Assembly: GCA_902728285.1 (NCBI GenBank)
Contig: CACVBU010001295.1
Location: 1-64,000, forward strand
Direction of reading: 5' to 3'
From: Clytia hemisphaerica
Taxonomy: Eukaryota > Cnidaria > Hydrozoa > Leptothecata > Clytiidae
Length of the DNA: 64,000 nt
The position numbers were made by a program, and so were the translations under genes. Numbering within the stretch: the first letter of the stretch is position 1; each line of letters opens with the position of its first letter. Positions 3,688-52,423 of this stretch are shown here, piece after piece. Under the pieces are notes generated by a model that was not told the DNA's origin, searched no databases, and saw only the letters and a list, made by a program, of their open reading frames with translations.

Positions 3688-4036
3688 TAGGCTGCGCGCA
3701 TCCCCAGAATTTATTTTGTTATAGGGGATGCGTATCGTGTATGAATTTCTCGTCCGAGAGTTACCTCAAATTTGGGGTAACCAAAATTTGCATAAATTTA
3801 CATAATTTCGTCACATCCAATCAAAGAAAGAAAAAAATGAAGTCATTGTGCACTGTTGTTTTCATAATTATCAATGGTTTCATTCATTGAACAAAGAAAA
3901 AAAGAAGTCATTTTATTCCTATGACGCATAATCAAAAAAGAAAAAGAAAAGACGGGGGTAAGTCGGGACAGAAATATTTTAGACGATACGCATCCCCTAG
4001 ATATCAAATCATATCAGAGGGGATGCGTGCAGCCTA
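3688..4036. mobile_element. 349-bp element with 9-bp target duplication
   Basis: The terminal inverted repeats are TAGGCTGCGCGCATCCCC and GGGGATGCGTGCAGCCTA. The 9-mer AAGTAACCC lies exactly on both sides (3679-3687 and 4037-4045). A 9-bp duplication is typical of Mutator-like elements, so this is probably a non-autonomous MULE; that assignment is inference. Internal copies of the GGGGATGCGT motif occur near both ends. No open frame. Confidence 0.8.
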
Positions 4037-4185
4037 AAGTAACCCTTGAAGCAATTTTATGATTAATCCACGACACCTTCAAATCTTTTTTTTTACAAAT
4101 ATATAGAATAAACTGGATTCGATTACCGTTTCACAATTTAATTTAGAAATAAGTACTATTCGCAACTTGCTATTTTTCTTTTTAG

Positions 4186-4348
4186 GTGACGTCATCTGCG
4201 ATCCCATGTGTGGCGGAGGGTCCATTCCCTTAGAAGGCGCTCATAGCTTACCGGGTGTATTCAATTTGGGCGGTGACAACCATTCTTTGGCGGTCAGTAA
4301 TGCAGGCGAAAACATCCAATCATATTCTTCGAAGAAGACGAGAGAAGG
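4186..4348 (+). CDS. THUMPD3 tRNA (guanine-N2)-methyltransferase, SAM-binding exon
   Basis: This internal exon encodes the start of the Rossmann-fold methyltransferase domain of THUMPD3. Members of this family act with TRMT112 and methylate guanosine N2 in the acceptor stem of tRNAs (positions 6 and 7 in human). The exon shows the SAM-binding motif I as DPMCGGGSIPLEGA, followed by the acidic strand LGGDN and the helix LAVSNAGENI, in the order expected for the family. It begins after a polypyrimidine tract and AG at 4184-4185, with a glycine codon split after its first base, and ends at donor GGTATGA with two bases of a glycine codon left over; that phase fits the next exon exactly. The usual CGTG of motif I is CGGG here. 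The THUMP domain and earlier exons are not seen. Confidence 0.88.
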
Positions 4349-5868
4349 GTATGAAATTTTTGAACAATTATTATTTTCGTTGGTAGCTGAATACACCGTT
4401 TAGTAGTGTCGACTGCGCACGCGTCCAAACAATTTTCCATTGTTTTGATTTTAGCGACCGCAGGAAACTTCACTCTTTCCCGTAAAAAAACGGTAAGTAA
4501 AATTCCGGTTCTCATAAGGAAACCCAGCAGAGAAATGATAGTTAAAGAACTCCTTTTAATCATAACTTCTTTTCCTCTAGATGAATTTTCGGGAGAGATC
4601 CATAAAGTCATCATTGATATCATGTTCAGATATCTAAATCATTCTATTTAAAGGAAAGAAAAAAATTGACAACGTTTACATTCCTCTAACCTTCCACAGT
4701 ACTAAAGTGCGCATTTTTACCTACTCTCGGGTACCTAATAGCCGTCCCCCCCCGCTAATTAATTTTTCGAAAATTTTCCACCCAGGACATTGTTATTCCA
4801 ACCCCCCCGCTTATTAATTTTGGGGAAAATGTTTTTGAAAGTTCCCTTTTTTGTCTTAATTCTGTTGTATTAGCCTCCTTTTCAAACATTTTCCACCCAG
4901 GACATTTTTATTCCAACCCCCCCCCCCCCCGCTTATTAAATTTTAAGATTTTTTCCAACCCCCCGGCTTATTCCAACCCCCCCCCGGCTATTAGGTACCC
5001 GAGAGTACCGCCTTCACGGTGGAACACGGTGGAGACTCCTAAACGGTGTATTGTGTTATCTCTCTCACAATTTTGTTATAACACTAAAAAACCTATTGAA
5101 CTAAGGGAGGTGGTGGAGAAAACAGATTCAACTGGGCGACTTAATATTCTTTTTGCAAACAAAGAGCTTTTGCTTAACATTACATTACGCAAAAACGTCA
5201 TCTTTCACGTCCTTGTCATTTATGTTTTTGCTCATTAGCAAAAGGAGCAATAATAGCTAGTTTGTTGAAATTAGAAATGAACCAAAATGACACGTGATTT
5301 CGAAGGATCAATATTAGTATGTAATTTGTGATACCATCAGTTTCTTGATTTCTTGGCAACTTGGTTTAATTTGATTTGTAATGAAAATTTAATGACAGGC
5401 CATTATTGAGCGAGACGATTTTGAATATCTGAATGTTTGTTACGAAAACGGTCAAAATTAGTAACTGAGCACTCACTAAACCAAATAGAATTGCCAAGAT
5501 GTGCCTGGGTATGGAGTCTTTTCTTCTGATCTGTACCCACTGTCTGTTCATTGAGTATATCCTTCATTGGTTACTGGACGACCAAATTTCGTCAAAGTCT
5601 CTGCACCATTACCTTTCACTTAGTTATGATACTGATTCTTGTAAATTATTTACCGCCCCATTAACCTTTTTCTTTACCCTTTCATTACTAATCATTGTAA
5701 TAATATAATTAAAATCTTATTATAAAAATCATCCAGTAAGTCTTATCACAACTTTGTAGTTATCTCTCTAACGGTAGTAGAAACACCAAACACCCCATAA
5801 TATAATTTAATATAATGTAATATACGTGTAATATGTAGCGTACAATCCATCATTTTCTTTTCGTTCAG
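4349..5868 (+). other. THUMPD3 intron
   Basis: GT at 4349 to AG at 5867-5868, preceded by the pyrimidine-rich TTTTCTTTTCGTTCAG. It contains the C-rich foldback element at 4722-5008. Short open frames in it (for example 4406-4651 and 5029-5238) do not resemble proteins and are not needed for the spliced product. Confidence 0.8.
4722..5008. mobile_element. C-rich foldback element copy 1 (TACTCTCGGGTACC ends)
   Basis: The left end TACTCTCGGGTACCTAATAG and the right end CTATTAGGTACCCGAGAGTA are exact complements. Between them the motif of a C run plus GCTTATTAATTTT and CCACCCAGGACAT is repeated. A shorter relative lies at 7070-7221. It is non-coding and sits inside the THUMPD3 intron. Confidence 0.75.
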
Positions 5869-7652: not shown

Positions 7653-7786
7653 CGTTCGTTCGTTCGTTCGTTCGTTCGTTCGTTCGTTCGTTCGTTCGTT
7701 CGTTCGTTCGTTCGTTCGTTCGTTCGTTCGTTCGTTCGTTCGTTCGTTCGTTCGTTCGTTCGTTCGTTCGTTCGTTCGTTCGTTCG
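7653..7786. repeat. (CGTT)n microsatellite, about 33 copies
   Basis: An uninterrupted 4-bp repeat over 134 bp, followed by two copies of CGACATGACAGATT. The repeating Asn-Glu-Arg-Thr open frame on the minus strand is only a reading of the microsatellite. Each unit carries a CpG, so the tract is an isolated cluster of about 33 CpGs in AT-rich DNA. Confidence 0.97.
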
Positions 7787-11329: not shown

Positions 11330-11540
11330 TGTAGCGGAAAAGGTTTCACGAATTTTGGCAAATTTTGATTTTTCGATGACGTCATCGTTTTATGACGTCA
11401 TTTTGCCTTATTTCCTTTATATCTCCTAATATATTCATTTTCAGATATAGGTTGTGACCTTTTTCTTCATCAGTTTTTCATGCTCTTTCGAATGAAACAA
11501 AAATTTTTCAATTTTGACGACTTTTTATTTTGGTTGCCAT
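11330..11540. repeat. TGACGTCAT-containing dispersed repeat copy 1
   Basis: This stretch contains TTTTTCGATGACGTCATCG, TGACGTCATTTTGCC, TTTCCTTTATATCTCCTAAT, TTTTCAGATATAGGTTGTGA and GAATGAAACAAAAATTTTTC. The same ordered words recur at about 17860-18000, with the last word rearranged to the front. It is non-coding, and its ends are not defined. Confidence 0.5.
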
Positions 11541-15054: not shown

Positions 15055-15394
15055 ATTTTGAAAGGATACAACTTTCTAATTTGCGTTGCTCAGAGCGGTT
15101 AATAACTACTTGTGGTTTAAATAGGGAATTTCCCAACAAAAAGGAATTTCCCTTAATTCGACTCCCTCAGGTAATAAAAAAAGACATATAGAGCTTTGAA
15201 AATGGGTAATCAGATGAAAACAAATCCGGAAAAGTGTTTTTAATGATGATAAAACAATAGAAATACAGTCAAGCTAAGAATGTTAACGGTACACTATTTA
15301 ACCGGAACTAAAATACTGAAAAACGTGGAAGCTATGAATGCCATCCTCGGAAGCTTTAGGCTTCCTGCGGTGGCAATAATAATTTATTGAAACC

Positions 15395-15680: not shown

Positions 15681-16182
15681 TCTTTAAAAAGCTATTTCAT
15701 TTAGGCGACCTTCCAGCGCAGCTGGTTTATTGATCTTGATTTGGGAGATATTTTTCACCTTTGTCTTGTCATTAGGACGGGGTAGAATCAAGATTGTGGA
15801 TCCCTTCGTGCAATTCCAAAGGCAAAGGCACCTATCGCGTTAAGTCTTCACACGTGGTAGTAACGCCAGAAAAGATTAATCGGGGTCGTTCACGCCTTTA
15901 CACCAAACTAAAAACTAGAACTGGCTCCATATACTTTTACATTTGGCATTGCACGTAAGAAATATGGGAAACGAGTATGGTAGTTTTTGCGATTTTCGAA
16001 ACAGAGCAAAAATTGGCGTCACAAACTGAAAGACCAGAGTGACGTCAAATATTTTCATTCAGCATCAAAACTCTCCGTCAAAAACTTTTCACTAAGTTAA
16101 ACATTGCCCTCTGCAAAGAGAAGTCGTGTTTTTGAAGCAAGGTTATTTTGCTGTGAATATTGTGTAAAATATTGTGATAAAA

Positions 16183-16938
16183 ATGAGAGAATTCGGTGAT
16201 TATCGAATTCAATCGGACGAGTATCGTCTCGTCTCTGTTCACCAAGCTGAACAAATCGAAGAATTGAAAAATAAAGATGCCCGCCGCAACTTTACAGTAC
16301 AATCTCTGCAACGTCGAATCGCAGAATTGGAAAAACTTGTTGTGAGCAAGGACAATAAAATTGAAGAAATTGAAGGAAAACTTGATGAACAGTCAAAAGA
16401 AACTGAAGAATGGAAAGAGAAATTTGAACTTCAAGATTTGAAAACAGAACGCGCTCACGAACGGCGAATGGAACAAGAACAGAGAGCTGATCGTTTAGAG
16501 AAAGTTGTTTCTGGATTGAAAAATGAGATGGAGAAAGTGAATTGCGTTCAAGTCTGTCTTGGAAGTCAAATCAATGGTTGTCGACAAAAGATTGCTGAGC
16601 AAGCTTCTTTGATCCAAATCATGGAAAAAGAAAATGTCAAATTGAAAGAGAAAGTTGGAGGTTTGAAAGATCTGGTCAAGGAAGCCAAAACGAAGATTGA
16701 TGTCGATGCAAAAACCATCAAAAACTTGAAGAATGTCGTCTCGGAACAAAAGGATGACATTTCCAAGTTCAACAACTTTATATCGGTGATCAAGAAACGT
16801 GAAAACAAGATCGTCAATCTCTTCAACAAATTGAAAAGACATTTTGAAGAGAAATATAATGGACGTTGTTTCAAGATTTTACGACGTCGACGACAAAGTG
16901 GTGCTTTAGATCTGGTGATGAGTCTTGATGAGTCGTGA
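16183..16938 (+). CDS. Intronless coiled-coil protein, copy 1 (3'-truncated)
   Basis: An uninterrupted frame of about 251 codons from ATG at 16183 (a GTG three codons earlier is in frame). Nearly the whole product is heptad-like and Lys/Glu-rich, for example RRIAELEKLVVSKDNKIEEI and KENVKLKEKVGGLKDLVKEA, so it should form long coiled coils. It ends in a basic patch ILRRRRQ. The spacing of the last helices is loosely reminiscent of ciliary coiled-coil proteins such as the CFAP57 C-terminus, but I would not name it on that. The frame stops at TGA just after the inverted-repeat arm ends at 16931, while the other copy continues for 23 more residues, so this copy has lost its natural C-terminus. 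The lack of introns suggests a retrocopy or a fragment of a larger exon. Confidence 0.6.
   Translation: MREFGDYRIQSDEYRLVSVHQAEQIEELKNKDARRNFTVQSLQRRIAELEKLVVSKDNKIEEIEGKLDEQSKETEEWKEKFELQDLKTERAHERRMEQEQRADRLEKVVSGLKNEMEKVNCVQVCLGSQINGCRQKIAEQASLIQIMEKENVKLKEKVGGLKDLVKEAKTKIDVDAKTIKNLKNVVSEQKDDISKFNNFISVIKKRENKIVNLFNKLKRHFEEKYNGRCFKILRRRRQSGALDLVMSLDES
16369..16931. repeat. Left arm of a perfect 563-bp inverted repeat
   Basis: Ten consecutive 60-base rows were compared with the complement of 17270-17832 and no difference was found; both arms are 563 bp. The breakpoints are sharp: ATTGAAGG at the outer edge and AGTCTTGATGA at the inner edge. The spacer is 338 bp. Confidence 0.95.
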
Positions 16939-17269
16939 ACCTTGGCAAGTGAACAAACCTTTGCCCGGATCAACCCATGCCATGTGAGGGGAATTGGGTA
17001 GTCAGTTCAAGGTGCTGACGGGATGCTTACTCAAAGCATCTATAATTGAGAGAATGGGCTCCCAGAGCCACCTGTAACTCAACCATAATAGATAGATAGA
17101 GAAGTAAGTTGTATTTTTGATGTTTCGATTTTAAGTGATGTTACAGTATATAAAAATCTAAAATACAAGTTTTTGGTTTGGAATGGCCTAAACCATTCAT
17201 ATTTGTTGTCTTGAAGAAGTTGTATGGAATAGTGGAGGATCAGGAATAGGTTCTTCATTTACCAGAAGA
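16932..17269. other. Spacer between the inverted-repeat arms
   Basis: On its left it holds unrelated non-coding sequence with a short TAGATAGATAG run. On its right it holds the complement of the natural 3' end of the coiled-coil frame (stop at 17197-17199). A transcript through both arms would form a 563-bp hairpin with this loop. Confidence 0.7.
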
Positions 17270-17847
17270 TCATCAAGACTCATCACCAGATCTAAAGCAC
17301 CACTTTGTCGTCGACGTCGTAAAATCTTGAAACAACGTCCATTATATTTCTCTTCAAAATGTCTTTTCAATTTGTTGAAGAGATTGACGATCTTGTTTTC
17401 ACGTTTCTTGATCACCGATATAAAGTTGTTGAACTTGGAAATGTCATCCTTTTGTTCCGAGACGACATTCTTCAAGTTTTTGATGGTTTTTGCATCGACA
17501 TCAATCTTCGTTTTGGCTTCCTTGACCAGATCTTTCAAACCTCCAACTTTCTCTTTCAATTTGACATTTTCTTTTTCCATGATTTGGATCAAAGAAGCTT
17601 GCTCAGCAATCTTTTGTCGACAACCATTGATTTGACTTCCAAGACAGACTTGAACGCAATTCACTTTCTCCATCTCATTTTTCAATCCAGAAACAACTTT
17701 CTCTAAACGATCAGCTCTCTGTTCTTGTTCCATTCGCCGTTCGTGAGCGCGTTCTGTTTTCAAATCTTGAAGTTCAAATTTCTCTTTCCATTCTTCAGTT
17801 TCTTTTGACTGTTCATCAAGTTTTCCTTCAATATTTTTTGTTCCCAA
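17197..17847 (-). CDS. Coiled-coil protein, copy 2 (5'-truncated, natural C-terminus)
   Basis: Inverted copy of the frame at 16183-16938, identical over the arm. It lacks the first roughly 60 residues; at the outer breakpoint the frame runs into unrelated sequence and the only start is a chance ATG giving MGTKN. It keeps a 23-residue tail beginning LLVNEEPIPDPP that copy 1 has lost. The two copies therefore carry complementary ends of one ancestral frame. Immediately beyond the outer edge (17832-17870) a TGACGTCAT-type dispersed repeat begins. Confidence 0.5.
   Translation of the reverse strand: MGTKNIEGKLDEQSKETEEWKEKFELQDLKTERAHERRMEQEQRADRLEKVVSGLKNEMEKVNCVQVCLGSQINGCRQKIAEQASLIQIMEKENVKLKEKVGGLKDLVKEAKTKIDVDAKTIKNLKNVVSEQKDDISKFNNFISVIKKRENKIVNLFNKLKRHFEEKYNGRCFKILRRRRQSGALDLVMSLDDLLVNEEPIPDPPLFHTTSSRQQI
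17270..17832. repeat. Right arm of the 563-bp inverted repeat
   Basis: Exact complement of 16369-16931 in all rows compared. Open frames on the opposite strand within both arms are identical for the same reason and are shadows. Confidence 0.95.
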
Positions 17848-17859
17848 GCAGGTCCTCTT

Positions 17860-18000
17860 TCAGATGAAACAAAAATTTTTCGATTTCGATGATTTTTTAA
17901 TTGCCGATGACGTCATTGATGATGTCATTTTTTGAGCTATTTTCCTTTATTGCTTCTCAAATATTGATTTTCAGGTATATGTTGTGATATTTCTTGGAAT
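17860..18000. repeat. TGACGTCAT-containing dispersed repeat copy 2
   Basis: Shares GATGAAACAAAAATTTTTCG, GATGACGTCATTGATG, TTTTCCTTTATTGCTTCTCA and TTTTCAGGTATATGTTGTGA with 11330-11540. It lies directly beside the outer end of the inverted repeat. Confidence 0.5.
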
Positions 18001-19295
18001 CCTTGGATGAATATCTTTCATTTGAGCCATATTCGAGCTTCTAATTTTCACTTTCATTTTCAAGCCCTAGCAAAAGTGATGACGTCACATGGGGACCAGC
18101 AAAATGGTCAAAATTTTTCTCACCACTCGTTTTTATGATCTTATAGACTTAATTGATCATTTAAAAAAGTTAGTTTGCTTTTAACAAGTCTGTGCACACG
18201 AAGAACAGTGTAGCTCTCACTAATCCAACGTTAATGGATTTCATGGACCAATGAACTTTTTTGTCAGCTACGCTTTTGTTTTAGTTACAGATGACATCAA
18301 ACCTTCAGCCTTGCCTCTGATCATTTTTCATTAAAGTTGACCGCCGTCTTTTGAAGCTTTGTGCCAATGTTTAGTAGTTGTCATTAGTAACACTAGTTTC
18401 TGATGAGATGAAAAGCTATTAAGGTTAATCAACTTTCAAACAAGAGTCTTCGTAACCAAACACTCTCTGTTTCTCTTTAATCACGTAATTGATAATTAAA
18501 TTCTATTATTAGTTTTTTAGGAATCGATTTCATACGCCTTCTTAATTTTCATTGCTTTCAATTTTAAAGTTTTACACCAGAGATACTCTGTTTGGACAAA
18601 ATTGTCAACTGAAATAGTTGACGGGAAGGATGTTTCTAGTCGTGTGTGTGCCTCAAAATATAGGAAAGAATATTGTAATTTTAGTTTCAGGCTCATCCCA
18701 AGTTAATCCCAAATATTTAACTCCCAAATATGGCACCTTGCAGCTCTTTCTTAATTCTTTTAAAATCACTATCAGAGGGGTACCTTAAAGAGAAGAAATT
18801 TTAGCGAAAAGAAATTTTTGGTGCAAGTTGGCGGAATTTATTTTGGCGATTTAATAAAATTTTTGATAACAAAATGCGGTGATGGATAACACAATTGTTG
18901 ACAGTACCTAAAACTTGAATGCATTATTAATGAGAATAACATTAGAAATAACGTGCAGTAGACATTAACTTGGCTGCTTTTCATGTTGAAATCCAGGGTC
19001 CAACCTGTGATTAACTTGAAAAGTGAAAGTACTTTCTAGTTATAATGTCATGTGAGTGTGTTGTGATACTGGTATCTCGCTGGCGTCAGTAGTTGCGATC
19101 GTGCAAAGCAGTACACAGGTCGCTAAGATCAAGGCCAGATCCCTGCTCACCATATTGGGAAAGTGAATTTTCTCAAGCCTTATGTTTCCGAAGCAATAGG
19201 GAAGAGTTAACCTCAGATAGGGTACGGAAATAATGACCAGAACATTTAATACCCTTGGTTTTAAAGCAGATCGGAGATTGGTTTCAAGGAGATTT
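18001..19295. other. Gene-free stretch
   Basis: No exon recognised. The part from about 19080 to 19295 may belong to the 3' side of the LINE fragment that follows on the minus strand, but no conserved protein word was found there. Confidence 0.35.
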
Positions 19296-23278: not shown

Positions 23279-24215
23279 TTACTCGTCATCAAGAATATCC
23301 TCTCGAATGACACCTCTCTTGATTGTTGACGATTTTTTAATTTCAACCACTAATTGTTCGTCTTCCGTAAATCTGGACATGATTTGGTGACAGTTTGCAT
23401 TACGGGGTACGGCGTATCGCTTGTTGAACTCTTTATGTCGGACACGTTCATGACCATTCTCAACGGAACAGATTTTTTGACGTCCGTGGATGATCAATTC
23501 ACGACTTTGAATTTTGATATCTAAATCTTGGGGATCGTATCCACGGCAGTTGACTGTCAACATATAAGTGTTGTCAGCTGTTTCGTGAAAATCGTTATCG
23601 GAGATGTTTGAAGATATGGATCGGGAATCTTCACTGAGTCGGGATCGCGAGTCTTCCGAGTAGTCTGAAGTCGCGATTGATCTTCTTGATGGTGACGGTG
23701 ACAGTTTAGTGTGCTCACCACTCAGCATAATTTCAGGTGTAGTGTGTCCAGAAGAGGACAATGAACGCCGTAAGGCTGGTTCTTCGATCATCGGCTCATT
23801 AACGCGGCCAGTAATCACCAAGATTCCTTCATCGGTAATGGTTGATTTGATGTCAGCTTTCTTAATCCCATCAGGGATCGGATAACGTCGGTGGAATTGT
23901 AAGGATTCGAACCCATATTCCGATTCAGCGAAATGTTTACCGTTGACCACTAGTTTACCATCTTCCAATGTGACCAGAATTTCATCTGGTGCGTAATGGG
24001 AGACATCTAAACTGACTTTGAATTCACGTGGACTTCCTGGTGATTTAGGTGAGGATGGTGGTGAAGGTGTGCTTGGTGTGCTACTGTTGTTACTGCTCAG
24101 TTGAGACATCAAGTCTTTGTTGCGGCGACCGTATCTGTTTGGTGGTACTGTGGTGTAGATACCTGTACTTGATGGTGGTTGGTTGCTTGTGTTACCTTTC
24201 CATAACATGGAAGAC
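23279..24215 (-). CDS. Small heat-shock protein, exon with two alpha-crystallin domains
   Basis: Second coding exon of a minus-strand gene. It starts after acceptor TTTATAG with one base that completes a split ATG codon, and ends DILDDE-stop. After a Ser/Pro-rich linker there are two alpha-crystallin domains. The first (about residues 371-445 of the joined 618-residue product) has VSHYAPDEILVTLEDGKLVV and the C-terminal strand TDEGILVITG. The second (about 521-601) has CRGYDPQDLDIKIQSRELII and TEDEQLVVEI. Both keep the usual order: an early strand with D-x-PxE/D-like turn, the L-x-V strand, an H-x-F/R-x-Y-P/VP segment and G/Q-L-x-I/V. Small heat-shock proteins are ATP-independent holdase chaperones. 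Two domains in one chain are unusual and known in flatworms and some other invertebrates. The usual C-terminal IXI motif is not obvious. Confidence 0.92.
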
Positions 24216-25076
24216 CTATAAATGATAAGAATAAATAAATTGATTAAATTTTCATGTAACATACAATCAAGCTATTGCGTAAAGCATTAAACCTTGTAGT
24301 TCGAACGGAATTTTTATATGTATGAGGCATCACTTAACAGGTCAACTTATGGTTCATTTTTTTCTTTCATTGATTGATTGACTTATAATTTCTTTCACAA
24401 TATTCCCCATAGTATCTGAAAAACCAGATCATTTAAAATATTTCAAACCGCGACCTCTTCCCTACAGCGCCTTTAATTATCTAGTTATGTAAGGTGGCCA
24501 ATTAACACTCAGTGCTAGCATGACGGTGCTAATTGTTTGCCTTTTTTCCTTTCCCTTGAACTGGTATCATGTGTTTTCTTGAAGTTCGGTAGGGTTTTTC
24601 TTAATCAAATTTACAAATTAAAATTCTTCAGCTACGCGTGAGACTTTGTCGGAATTTTATCTTCCTTTTGGTCGTTACTTGTTATCAGAAAAACGCATGA
24701 TTTTACAATGTTTTAAAAAATTTCGGTTGCGCTGGTAACTTTAGTTGTAACAGTATGAGAAAATAGTGTTTCAAAGACTCGGAAGAATCCTAATTTGTAA
24801 CATTGAGCTTTTTAAAGTGATATTCTCATTGGTCATAATTACGGACATCAGAATGACGTCATAAGAAACAACCTTTTTCCTAACAACGTCCGGAAAAAAT
24901 CATTTAACTAGCAACGATGTCCGATTGTAATATCACAAACTTTTTGAAATCTACAATATTACTCAATATCATATGATCGAGTTCAATTCGTATTACCTCG
25001 AATAAAATGATGACCCTTTCGACCCCTTTACTTAGATTTCAAAATTTAGTGAGTACTATTTTATTTTTGAACTTAC
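24216..25076 (-). other. Intron of the small heat-shock gene
   Basis: 861 bases from donor GTAAGT (25076 leftward) to acceptor TTTATAG. The phase is 2 on the donor side and one base on the acceptor side, which restores an ATG methionine codon and keeps both large frames in register. Contains TGACGTCAT at about 24854 and no repeat pair. Confidence 0.8.
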
Positions 25077-46903: not shown

Positions 46904-49900
46904 ACTGTGAAAAATCTTCAAATTATTTTAGGAGCAAAAAGCAAAAAATGTAATTACAGTTGACACTGTCTAATTTGACGTTCTACTATTTGATAAGCCC
47001 GTTTTGGATAAAAATTTGAAGTCACTTTAAAGGTTTTGAAAAACCACTCTCTTATTTGATTTCTAGTAAAAAAAAAATGCCAGATATTTTGAAATTCAAA
47101 TGTTCGATTTTGTTGCGTTCAAATTAGAAACTCAAAATTTGACTCCTCAAATATTGCAAATATCAAAGATTTCTTCCAAAAAACTTATATAAATTTTCAG
47201 CAAGATCTTCGGTTATTGTACTGATTCGACGTTCAAAAACCAATCGCAATAATCAACCTTCGCTTCGCCTTCTTCTTCCCGTGTTACTCTATAATTCAAT
47301 ATTTACTTTAGGGATTTGGGAGACTTTCTCAATATTCAATATGCTGTGGTATTCGATGAGAATCCCTTGAAATTTGAATTAGAGAGTGTCAACTACTGTA
47401 TATATAGATTTTTGCAAAATGCAAACTTTCCTTTATGGAATTTCCCTTTTATAGGGCGCCTTGTTTTATACTTTAGTTCAGTTTCAAAAAATTCTTTTAA
47501 TTGTCAGCTGTGTGCTGTTCTGTATCAATAGTGTTAGAACGATGATGGAAAAAACTATATAAAAATAACTGTCAGACTGTTGTTCTGTCAGTCTGTGTTC
47601 TGTTTCGCTGGAAAATATAAATCAATCTCAATGTCTAAAAAGGATTCAAATTGTTTAGTTTTCCTTTCAGCAAACTCACACTGGATTGTTGGGTTTATAG
47701 AAAAGTAGTGCGATTGGACTACTGGACTGTGCTAATAACTGGAATAAAACAGATTTAAAGAAACAGGGAGAAATTCAAGATGTCTGCCACCATCACATCA
47801 GGTCCACCAACTTTCCTTTTTTATCGCTGACATTACCTTATACCTAAAGCCAGAGCCATCGGCTGATCGTTTGAAACATAGTCAATAGAAGAAATACCAG
47901 ATAATTCAATTGACATTGTTTGAAAGCTCCGACACGATAGGAAGAAACAAACGTCCGCCGCGCAAGCTAAAAAAGAGCTATCCTGTAAAACACGGCTTAT
48001 CGCTCTTCATTCCGGGAAATCAAATAACCGTTAATTGATAATGTTCCGCTAAGCGGAACTAAAATACTGAAACGCGCGCGCAAAATTATGAGATGTTTTC
48101 CCAACTTTCCCTCACGAGTGAAGCTATGAATGCCATCCTCGGAAGCTTTAGGCTTCCTGCGGTGGCAATAATCAAGCATAGTTTTCTATAGTAAGCACTT
48201 TAGGCCATGGAAAATAGTTCTCGTAATCCTTCTAACAGGAAGAATTTCAACGATGAATTTAGGCCGACAGTATGGGAATGAGAAGATTGATACGCTCCCC
48301 TAATAAAGACTTGTTGGGACCCACTAAGAAAGTAAAAAAATATTCCCTGATGAGAAAATACCCTGAAACCTCGTAAAGTTTGGACGTACGTTCAGATTCA
48401 CTTTTGATTAATGCTTAACTTTTTCCATGAAATATTTCACATTGTCAACATAAGTTCGACGAATGAAATTCCATTTTGAATTAGCAACCTGTCAAAATGC
48501 TAAAAATCTGATAATCACCATTTCAGATCTTAAAATAGACCATAGAAAACAAACAGATAAAATTTGCTGGTAGATTGCGGAAAAGTTTGTTATGAAATTA
48601 AAAAGCCCAAAATTTACGAGGTCTGTGTATATTCTTATACTCGAAAAGAATATTACCATTTTCTGAATAAAGCAAAGTTTCTCATTGCTAAACAAAAAGG
48701 CTCTATCAATCTATGTAATACATAGATAAAAACTTTACATATCGAAAGAAATCATTATAAAAACATCTTACATATTTCCGGCATTAAAATCCACCTTTTC
48801 CGAAAGAATCTACACTAATCCTCTTTAAAAAGAAAATATTCCAATCATTTAATAAATTTATACAGAATGACGAAAATTCTGATATTCAGGACCAATAATC
48901 TAATCTGGATAGTCATGGGTACGTTCTTTGGATGTTCTGGCGTGTTTTGATCGGATACAGATCATTGTAGATACACAAGTTCACGGATACATCAACTCCT
49001 AGAAATGAATTTTCCCGGAACTCGATAATATCCGTAGAATAACGATTAACTAATGCTTACCAACCCAGTTTTGCATTATATTGTAAACACATTAATTAAG
49101 ATTAAGATGTTTTAATTGAGTAAAGCTGGAAATTTTCAGCTTGTTTTTTGTTTGTTTGTTCTGTTTGACTTTTTTCATTTTAATCTAAAACGGTGTTATG
49201 TTTATTTCGGATATACGCCTTAACAATATTTTAAGTCTCCTAGCGCCGCCTTAATAAGCGGTGATTTAGCTCATAGAACAACGCTAGGGGATGTACACAG
49301 CAATATACCGTTTCAGGAGAAACTTCTTATAAGAGGTCCAAGTTGCTAGAAGCTGCAAAAGGTTTATAGGAGCTGTTTCGGTAACCTTTGGAGTTTGAAA
49401 AGAGTGTATCCGTCCGCTTCTACATGAAGAGTTCCTTCTGAACCTTAGATTAATAAAATATATCAAACAAAGTCTTAGGATCCAACATTTATGTTTAAAC
49501 TACCAAAGGAAACCGATGTCTTGAATTGTTAAATATTCGTAAAACTCAAAACTACCAGTTGTAGTCGACATTGGCCAATGCTAATTCAAGAAAAACCTTG
49601 TACACCAACAAAACAGAAAACCAAGGAAATAAAATATGATGCAAACCGATAATTGTGATCCATTAATAGAGAAAAAACAAGAAGAGAGTAAGGACGGGCG
49701 GTATATTAGCTGTGGCTTCCTAAAAACAGTAACAATTGAGTTGGCCTTGATCCAAAATAGCACTGTTCTCTATCTCTCCTTTTTCGTGTGTGAGAAAAAC
49801 ACTTTCTTTTAAGGTTCGCCGGGCTCCTAGGGCAACTTTGGAGTAAATAAACAAAGAAGCAATTTCAGAGTTCTATGACTAATAGTTGAATCTTCTATTT

Positions 49901-51759: not shown

Positions 51760-52423
51760 ACTCAGGCAAATTAAGGCATGTCCAAATTTACCTGAATTTT
51801 TTTATCACCGTTTCCACTTGTCATAGCATATCACTTCATACGTCGAAAGAAGCTGTTGGAGTGTAGATCACTGGAATAGCTGTGCCATAATTAATTTTTT
51901 CACCCAAAAAAGATATCAGGCAAAAACCAAAAAATGTTGACGTCAGCAAAACTTGTTTTTTGAATAACTCCAGTTTGGCTTATGATATAAACATGAAATT
52001 TGTACCAAAGTTGCATATTATTAATAGGAACATTTTTGCATAATTTTTTTTCTCGAAATTTTGCTGAAGTCAGCAGAAATCACCAAAATACGAAATTTTG
52101 CAATAAAGTGCTGACGTCAGCAAAATTTCAAAAAAAAAAATTTTCAAAATGGTCCTTTTGATGGTGTGCAACTTTGGTCCAAATTTCATGTTTTTACCAT
52201 AAGCCAAACTGGAGTTATTCAAAAAACAAGTTTTGCTGACGTCAGCACTTTTTGGTTTTTGCCTGATATATTTTTTTGGGTGAAAAAATTAATTATGGCA
52301 CAGTCATTCCAGTGATCTACACTCCAATACGCTTCTTTCGATGTATGAAGTGATATGCTATGACAAGTGGAAACGGTGATAAAAAATTAAGGTAAATTTG
52401 AAAAATCTGGACAGGCCTGAGTA
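51760..52423. mobile_element. 664-bp foldback element rich in TGACGTCAGCA
   Basis: Ends TACTCAGGC and GCCTGAGTA. The arms pair for about 270 bp each, including TTATCACCGTTTCCACTTGT, GATATCAGGCAAAAACCAAA and CCAGTTTGGCTTATG with their complements. The interior carries TGACGTCAGCA in both orientations. It is non-coding; the whole unit could form a long hairpin. Confidence 0.85.

Follow-up and report, generated by a model that had tools for sequence, protein, structure and literature searches.

The question raised by this locus is how two identical, oppositely oriented stretches of DNA, each holding a different part of one coiled-coil-like reading frame, came to lie side by side, and whether a transcript running through both could act as a silencing hairpin. 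The stretch of DNA analyzed (64,000 nucleotides, referred to as the window) opens contig C885 of a genome assembly of 417 Mb and 951 contigs. Comparison of the locus with the window by blastn aligned 16369-16931 with 17832-17270 over 563 bp at 100% identity in inverted orientation, which reproduces the repeat of the original prediction exactly, coordinates included. Self-comparison thus defines arm 1 (16369..16931, plus strand) and arm 2 (17270..17832, minus strand, copy 2 from residue 63), separated by a spacer of 338 nt. The repeat search outlined 568 nt (16364-16931 and 17270-17837); since a string test found the outermost 5 bases not all identical, 563 bp is the exact arm length. Identity over this length excludes chance as its cause. 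The view that the other repeats of the window are diverged held for the remaining pairs longer than about 110 bp, which were 88-97% identical in a megablast self-comparison, a method that detects fairly similar repeats only. It did not hold for two repeats with 100% identity, one a short-period tandem array (7653-7786), the other 53 bp long and present at 15328-15380 and 48120-48172.

Reading frames, alignment and residue periodicity were used to describe the gene content of the arms. Copy 1 (16183..16938, plus strand) is a coiled-coil-like frame of 251 amino acids with a full N-terminus. It begins with the ATG at 16183, follows the family over residues 1-249 and lacks the last 24 family residues, in place of which it has the residues ES and a stop ending at 16938. 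As judged from this frame, copy 1 can still encode a truncated protein of 251 residues. The open frame of copy 2 (17859-17197, minus strand) starts within a foldback element, aligns with the family from residue 63 onward and retains the final 24 residues absent from copy 1, together with the stop and the 3' flank. This 3' part (last codons, stop and 3' flank; 17110..17269, minus strand) is present once at the locus and is continuous with the arm in a paralog on contig C692, to which it aligned with 135 matches, 10 mismatches and 15 gap positions. Frames and family alignment therefore agree with the proposal that the N-terminus is kept in copy 1 and the C-terminus in copy 2. Both copies being partial, a tandem inversion of the whole gene was ruled out, as had been anticipated. 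As in structurally heterogeneous inverted duplicates, the copies are adjacent and in opposite orientation, each has gene sequence of its own, and the shared part, where little or no divergence is expected, differs at 0/563 positions.

A search of the assembly with the 568-bp arm yielded 4 candidates, all of which were scored: the two arms themselves and paralogs on C692 (96% DNA identity) and C832 (85%). In both paralogs a single exon holds an intact frame of 273 residues, counted from the ATG. Window positions 16038-16931 aligned with 3928-4822 of the C692 stretch, and 17831-17110 with 4261-4967 of the same uninterrupted stretch. Because C692 runs unbroken through both parts, copy 1 and copy 2 are fragments of one gene. 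The possibility that C692 is the second haplotype of the locus was rejected; nothing beyond the gene segment matches the window in the surrounding 9.5 kb, and C692 is therefore a paralog.

A protein search of the assembly gave 19 matches, 12 of them to longer members at 26-30% identity. None of the 19 contains an internal stop, and 16 start at query residue 1 in a single open frame, including a short one of 123 amino acids on C94; the other three (copy 2, C739 and C270) are partial. An intron-containing parental gene had been suggested as a search target. Related genes were indeed found elsewhere in the assembly, but they are single-exon, and this one six-frame search with its 19 matches returned no intron-containing parent. 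The dN/dS ratio was 0.30 to C692 and 0.18 to C832 (point estimates), and the source therefore looks like a real gene. Hydrophobic residues recur with a heptad-like period near 3.5 over residues 26-235, a periodicity reached by 0 of 1000 shuffles, and from its sequence the protein family looks coiled-coil. No Pfam match of the family protein reached its curated cut-off, the best (E 0.0069) scoring 16.8 bits where 31.6 is required; its best PDB match had an E value of 0.02, and Rfam gave 0 matches over the window at gathering scores. On contig C508 (1346000-1357267), four distant family members lie as same-strand tandem copies within about 11 kb. Elsewhere in the window, a 330-residue open frame on the minus strand (23279-24271) contains an alpha-crystallin domain with PDB matches to HspB6 and HspB1, and a second such domain was seen by eye.

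The 5' flank of copy 1 (16014..16182, plus strand) was examined in a three-way alignment with C692 and C832 and by counting sites in 16 members with a 5' end, namely the window copy, C692, C832 and 13 distant members; the tandem copies among them are not independent. Copy 1 has an exact TGACGTCA at -143 (16040) and a one-mismatch TGGCGTCA at -169 (16014). No member of the 16 lacks an exact TGACGTCA in the 220 nt 5' of the ATG, and 12 have two, with starts 28-32 bp apart in 11 of these 12 and 19 bp apart in C692. The remaining four, the window copy included, combine one exact TGACGTCA with a one-mismatch partner. In 220-nt slices of the window, at least one TGACGTCA occurred in 5.4% and at least two in 0.6%. 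The palindromic pair is found near -110 and -140 in the 13 distant members, and farther from the ATG in the window copy, C692 and C832; it is kept despite an identity of no more than 26-30% between the distant members and the window protein. From its sequence, the paired TGACGTCA looks like a shared CRE-type promoter of the coiled-coil family. Since the pairing is family-wide, copy 1 stands behind its own family's sites, and copy 2 lacks any of the family's TGACGTCA-type sites. The whole window holds 18 exact TGACGTCA.

Dispersed repeats next to the breakpoints had been noticed in the original prediction, and a SINE-like repeat and a foldback element were found at the junctions. At the inner junction, a 9-nt filler, GTCGTGAAC (16932..16940, plus strand), comes after the terminal GATGA of arm 1 and resembles both of its sides. 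On the left, the arm end is repeated over 9 nt (TGATGAGTC) once the first 3 nt of the filler are counted in; on the right, the last 6 nt of the filler repeat the GTGAAC present in the adjoining dispersed repeat. Fold-back inverted duplications are expected to have an inverted microhomology where spacer meets arm, with a templated filler in some cases; at this junction the filler resembles both sides, and a direct inverted microhomology is not evident. Among 20,000 random 9-mers of the window, the left test (at least 8 nt) was passed by 1018, the right test (at least 6 nt) by 291 and both by 12, the tests having been chosen post hoc. The dispersed repeat (16941..17104, right limit approximate, plus strand), which from its features we take to be SINE-like, is 5'-truncated and ends in an ATAG-type tail. 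Its best other copy in the genome search was 97% identical (best 40 scored of 1581 first-look candidates). Fuller copies extend upstream with GGTTCGATTCC-like sequence and likewise finish in an ATAG-type tail; the window copy begins inside the palindrome GTTCACTTGGCAAGTGAAC. Some 5-10 nt, assigned to neither part, separate its tail from the 3' flank of copy 2. Otherwise the spacer consists of the filler, the truncated SINE-like repeat and the 3' flank; in C692 the 3' flank adjoins the arm without a break, and the SINE-like repeat has no counterpart there.

The outer junction adjoins half of a foldback element, which we call MITE-like (about 17833..18222, plus strand; best other copy 98% in the genome search, best 40 scored of 327 candidates). 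A second inverted arm lay within the fetched stretch in six of the seven other copies opened and was absent in that on C743. The window half has the same outer end as the other copies, with no second arm adjoining it; in a self-search of 16001-18200 against the window, its sole relative was a partial, same-strand piece at 11363-11530. Gene and foldback element have a 3-nt microhomology, AAT, in common at 17830..17832, identified by eye. The inner break therefore lies within a small palindrome and the outer break within a foldback element. TGACGTCA also occurs inside the foldback element: the window half has it at arm positions 71 and 243, copy L039 at 71, and copies L044 and L045 at 71, 83 and 243. 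The element could thereby spread such sites beside genes. A second palindromic element of the window (51783-52400), 89% self-complementary over about 620 bp, also has TGACGTCA sites.

We consider it likely that this inverted partial duplicate arose recently, when one single-exon coiled-coil gene was rearranged by fold-back or template switching. Such an event would explain the arms, the spacer and both breaks at once, and a filler resembling both sides and the AAT microhomology are marks common in repair. The gene, copy 1 with its promoter, would have been interrupted near its 3' end, and synthesis or end-joining would have moved to the opposite strand inside a downstream antisense SINE-like repeat. 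Copying would then have gone back across the 3' flank and on through 563 bp of the coding part of the gene until a second switch, at the 3-nt microhomology, led into the inner part of the foldback element. A fold-back route with the 338-nt spacer as loop would give the same product. The outcome would be a tail-to-tail pair in which copy 1 has the promoter and N-terminus without the C-terminus and 3' flank, and copy 2 has the C-terminus and 3' flank without the promoter and N-terminus. From the observed mosaic, its junctions and the paralogs we infer the order of events, the enzyme pathway and an ancestor with both a SINE-like repeat and a foldback element 3' of the gene. When the surrounding stretches were compared, this assumed layout was present at neither paralog, C692 or C832. 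The surroundings of C832 do contain the repeat, in a diverged form (80%) some 325 bp past where the gene homology stops; it is in sense with the gene there, which is a point against a model that requires an antisense repeat. This C832 repeat is unlikely to be the same insertion, because the window copy is 97% identical to another family member. An ancestor with the SINE-like repeat in sense orientation is possible.

Events of this kind have been described. In the cited passages on Caenorhabditis elegans, tandem duplications of 1-4 kb were mostly inverted, 20 of 23 (20 being obtained by subtraction from the "3 of 23" given as head-to-tail; PMC2728738), and newborn duplicates often lay next to each other in opposite orientation, either copy having regions of its own (PMC2728529), precedents that may not carry over to the host of this locus. 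A search for the exact SL1 22-mer gave 0 matches, and a nematode host is not claimed. Human inverted duplications, as cited, have fold-back spacers, one junction containing a 16-bp filler derived from both sides (PMC3907307). The inverted partial duplicate, with its well-resolved junctions, is probably real and recent, a fairly ordinary DNA-repair scar of an already known kind.

The age of the event was assessed from the arms, which differ from each other at 0/563 positions and from C692 at 22/563 (Fisher p 4e-7). This difference points to youth or to conversion; the claim that the duplication is very recent is therefore upheld in so far as the arms are far closer to each other than to the nearest paralog, and recent homogenization would also fit. 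An older inverted duplicate whose arms were homogenized by gene conversion, so that their identity overstates its youth, appears unlikely to us. Conversion between adjacent inverted paralogs has a precedent in the hsp16 modules of C. elegans (cited passage of PMC3966223), and 563-bp arms 338 nt apart would probably be a suitable substrate. Identity nevertheless reaches both junctions without a decayed edge, an extent that conversion tracts need not attain, and in another study cited in that review 84% of converted adjacent pairs were in the same orientation. A single pair is too little to decide the matter.

The original prediction also allowed for an assembly or long-read foldback artefact, in which case the inverted arm would be absent from the genome. 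The perfect identity of the arms speaks for such an error, and the flank searches, in which the best 40 of 72 and the best 40 of 275 candidates were scored, returned neither a second copy of the flanks nor a second haplotype. A chimera of the foldback type should have a single axis of symmetry, whereas the center of the locus holds a SINE-like repeat and a single-copy gene 3' flank, and its outer end a foldback element joined at microhomology. A chimera also needs an undisturbed source with 100% identity; with all 4 candidates scored, the next copies were 96% and 85% identical. Because the two copies end differently, at repeats, and because no undisturbed 100% copy was found, an artefact fits poorly and is highly improbable. 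A chimeric retrocopy was considered as well, in which reverse transcription would have started on SINE-like RNA and switched to the mRNA of the gene, with copy 1 landing in the 3' flank of an original minus-strand gene. This would account for copy 1 and the SINE-like repeat lying on the same strand, for the truncated 5' end and intact tail of that repeat, and for the single-exon structure of the family members found. It would also call for insertion of the retrocopy into the very gene it came from, and copy 1 shares the -143 and -169 sites with the paralogs, which probably lie upstream of the transcript. Inspection by eye of the sequence near 16038 and 17105 revealed no target-site duplication, and we regard a retrocopy as very unlikely.

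The proposed fold-back or template-switch rearrangement would leave a promoter pointing at an inverted copy. It has been suggested that read-through of the arms might form a double-stranded substrate for Dicer. In that case transcription from the copy 1 promoter would continue past the spacer, the transcript would fold into a 563-bp duplex, and small RNAs cut from it by Dicer would silence the C692 paralog. Copy 1 retains its promoter-like sites and has lost the gene's own 3' flank, and no AATAAA occurs on the plus strand from 16900 to 18400; however, variant signals occur twice in the spacer (TATAAA at 17149, AATACA at 17162) and once in arm 2 (TATAAA at 17419), and these could end the transcript early. 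The predicted RNA fold is a full duplex (-1118 kcal/mol), as would be the case for any perfect repeat. As in hpRNA loci, a long near-perfect inverted repeat is combined with a loop and with complementarity to a target gene, 256 of the 542 arm 22-mers being exact in the C692 locus; the corresponding counts are only 5 of the 542 for C832 and 0 for every one of five distant members compared. The genome has 11 RdRP matches, all above cut-off. One of them is a domain at 95087-96769 of contig C430 within a single open frame of 1973 amino acids, and further ones lie on C455, C472, C857 and C931. The Dicer evidence consists of a single weak match to the Dicer-dimerization domain (27.7 bits, cut-off 23.7), which is partial and has one internal stop. 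From these features a working hairpin-RNA locus seems doubtful. We give an equally low probability to a hairpin-RNA silencer at its birth, for which one rearrangement would have removed the terminator and added the inverted copy, so that the native promoter might make a 563-bp duplex silencing C692. The TGACGTCA sites of the foldback element beside copy 2 might also allow convergent transcription. Hairpin silencing of C692 is thus a fair hypothesis to pose and compatible with the rearrangement origin, albeit an unlikely one; as read from its DNA, the locus remains an ordinary duplication scar.

If real and recent, the locus is a base-resolution example of one repair event splitting a gene into complementary inverted halves, and a promoter left aimed at an inverted copy would be a plausible start for hairpin-RNA genes. 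It also offers a simple way to ask whether small RNAs directed at the paralog arise immediately in a newborn inverted duplicate, or whether such a duplicate just decays. As far as the cited passages go, the closest likeness is to the adjacent inverted heterogeneous duplicates of C. elegans (PMC2728529, PMC3449122), which are likewise adjacent and inverted, with zero divergence in the shared part and unique sequence in each copy; compared with what is described there, the present locus differs in that its junctions take in a SINE-like repeat and one half of a foldback element. Human fold-back duplications show the same succession of arm, single-copy spacer and inverted arm, one of them with a two-sided filler, but in the cited text they are Mb-scale with spacers of 0.8-70 kb (PMC3907307), whereas arm and spacer measure hundreds of bp here. 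The hpRNA loci of Drosophila, as portrayed in the cited part of PMC10317233, resemble this locus in consisting of inverted gene-fragment copies near their progenitor with arms partly identical to related genes. The targets of ERI-6/7-dependent siRNAs in C. elegans are, according to the cited part of PMC3213143, likewise recently duplicated, poorly conserved genes; they were defined by 26G/22G siRNAs in mutants, whereas the present locus, in comparison with both of these RNA systems, is known and defined by DNA sequence alone.
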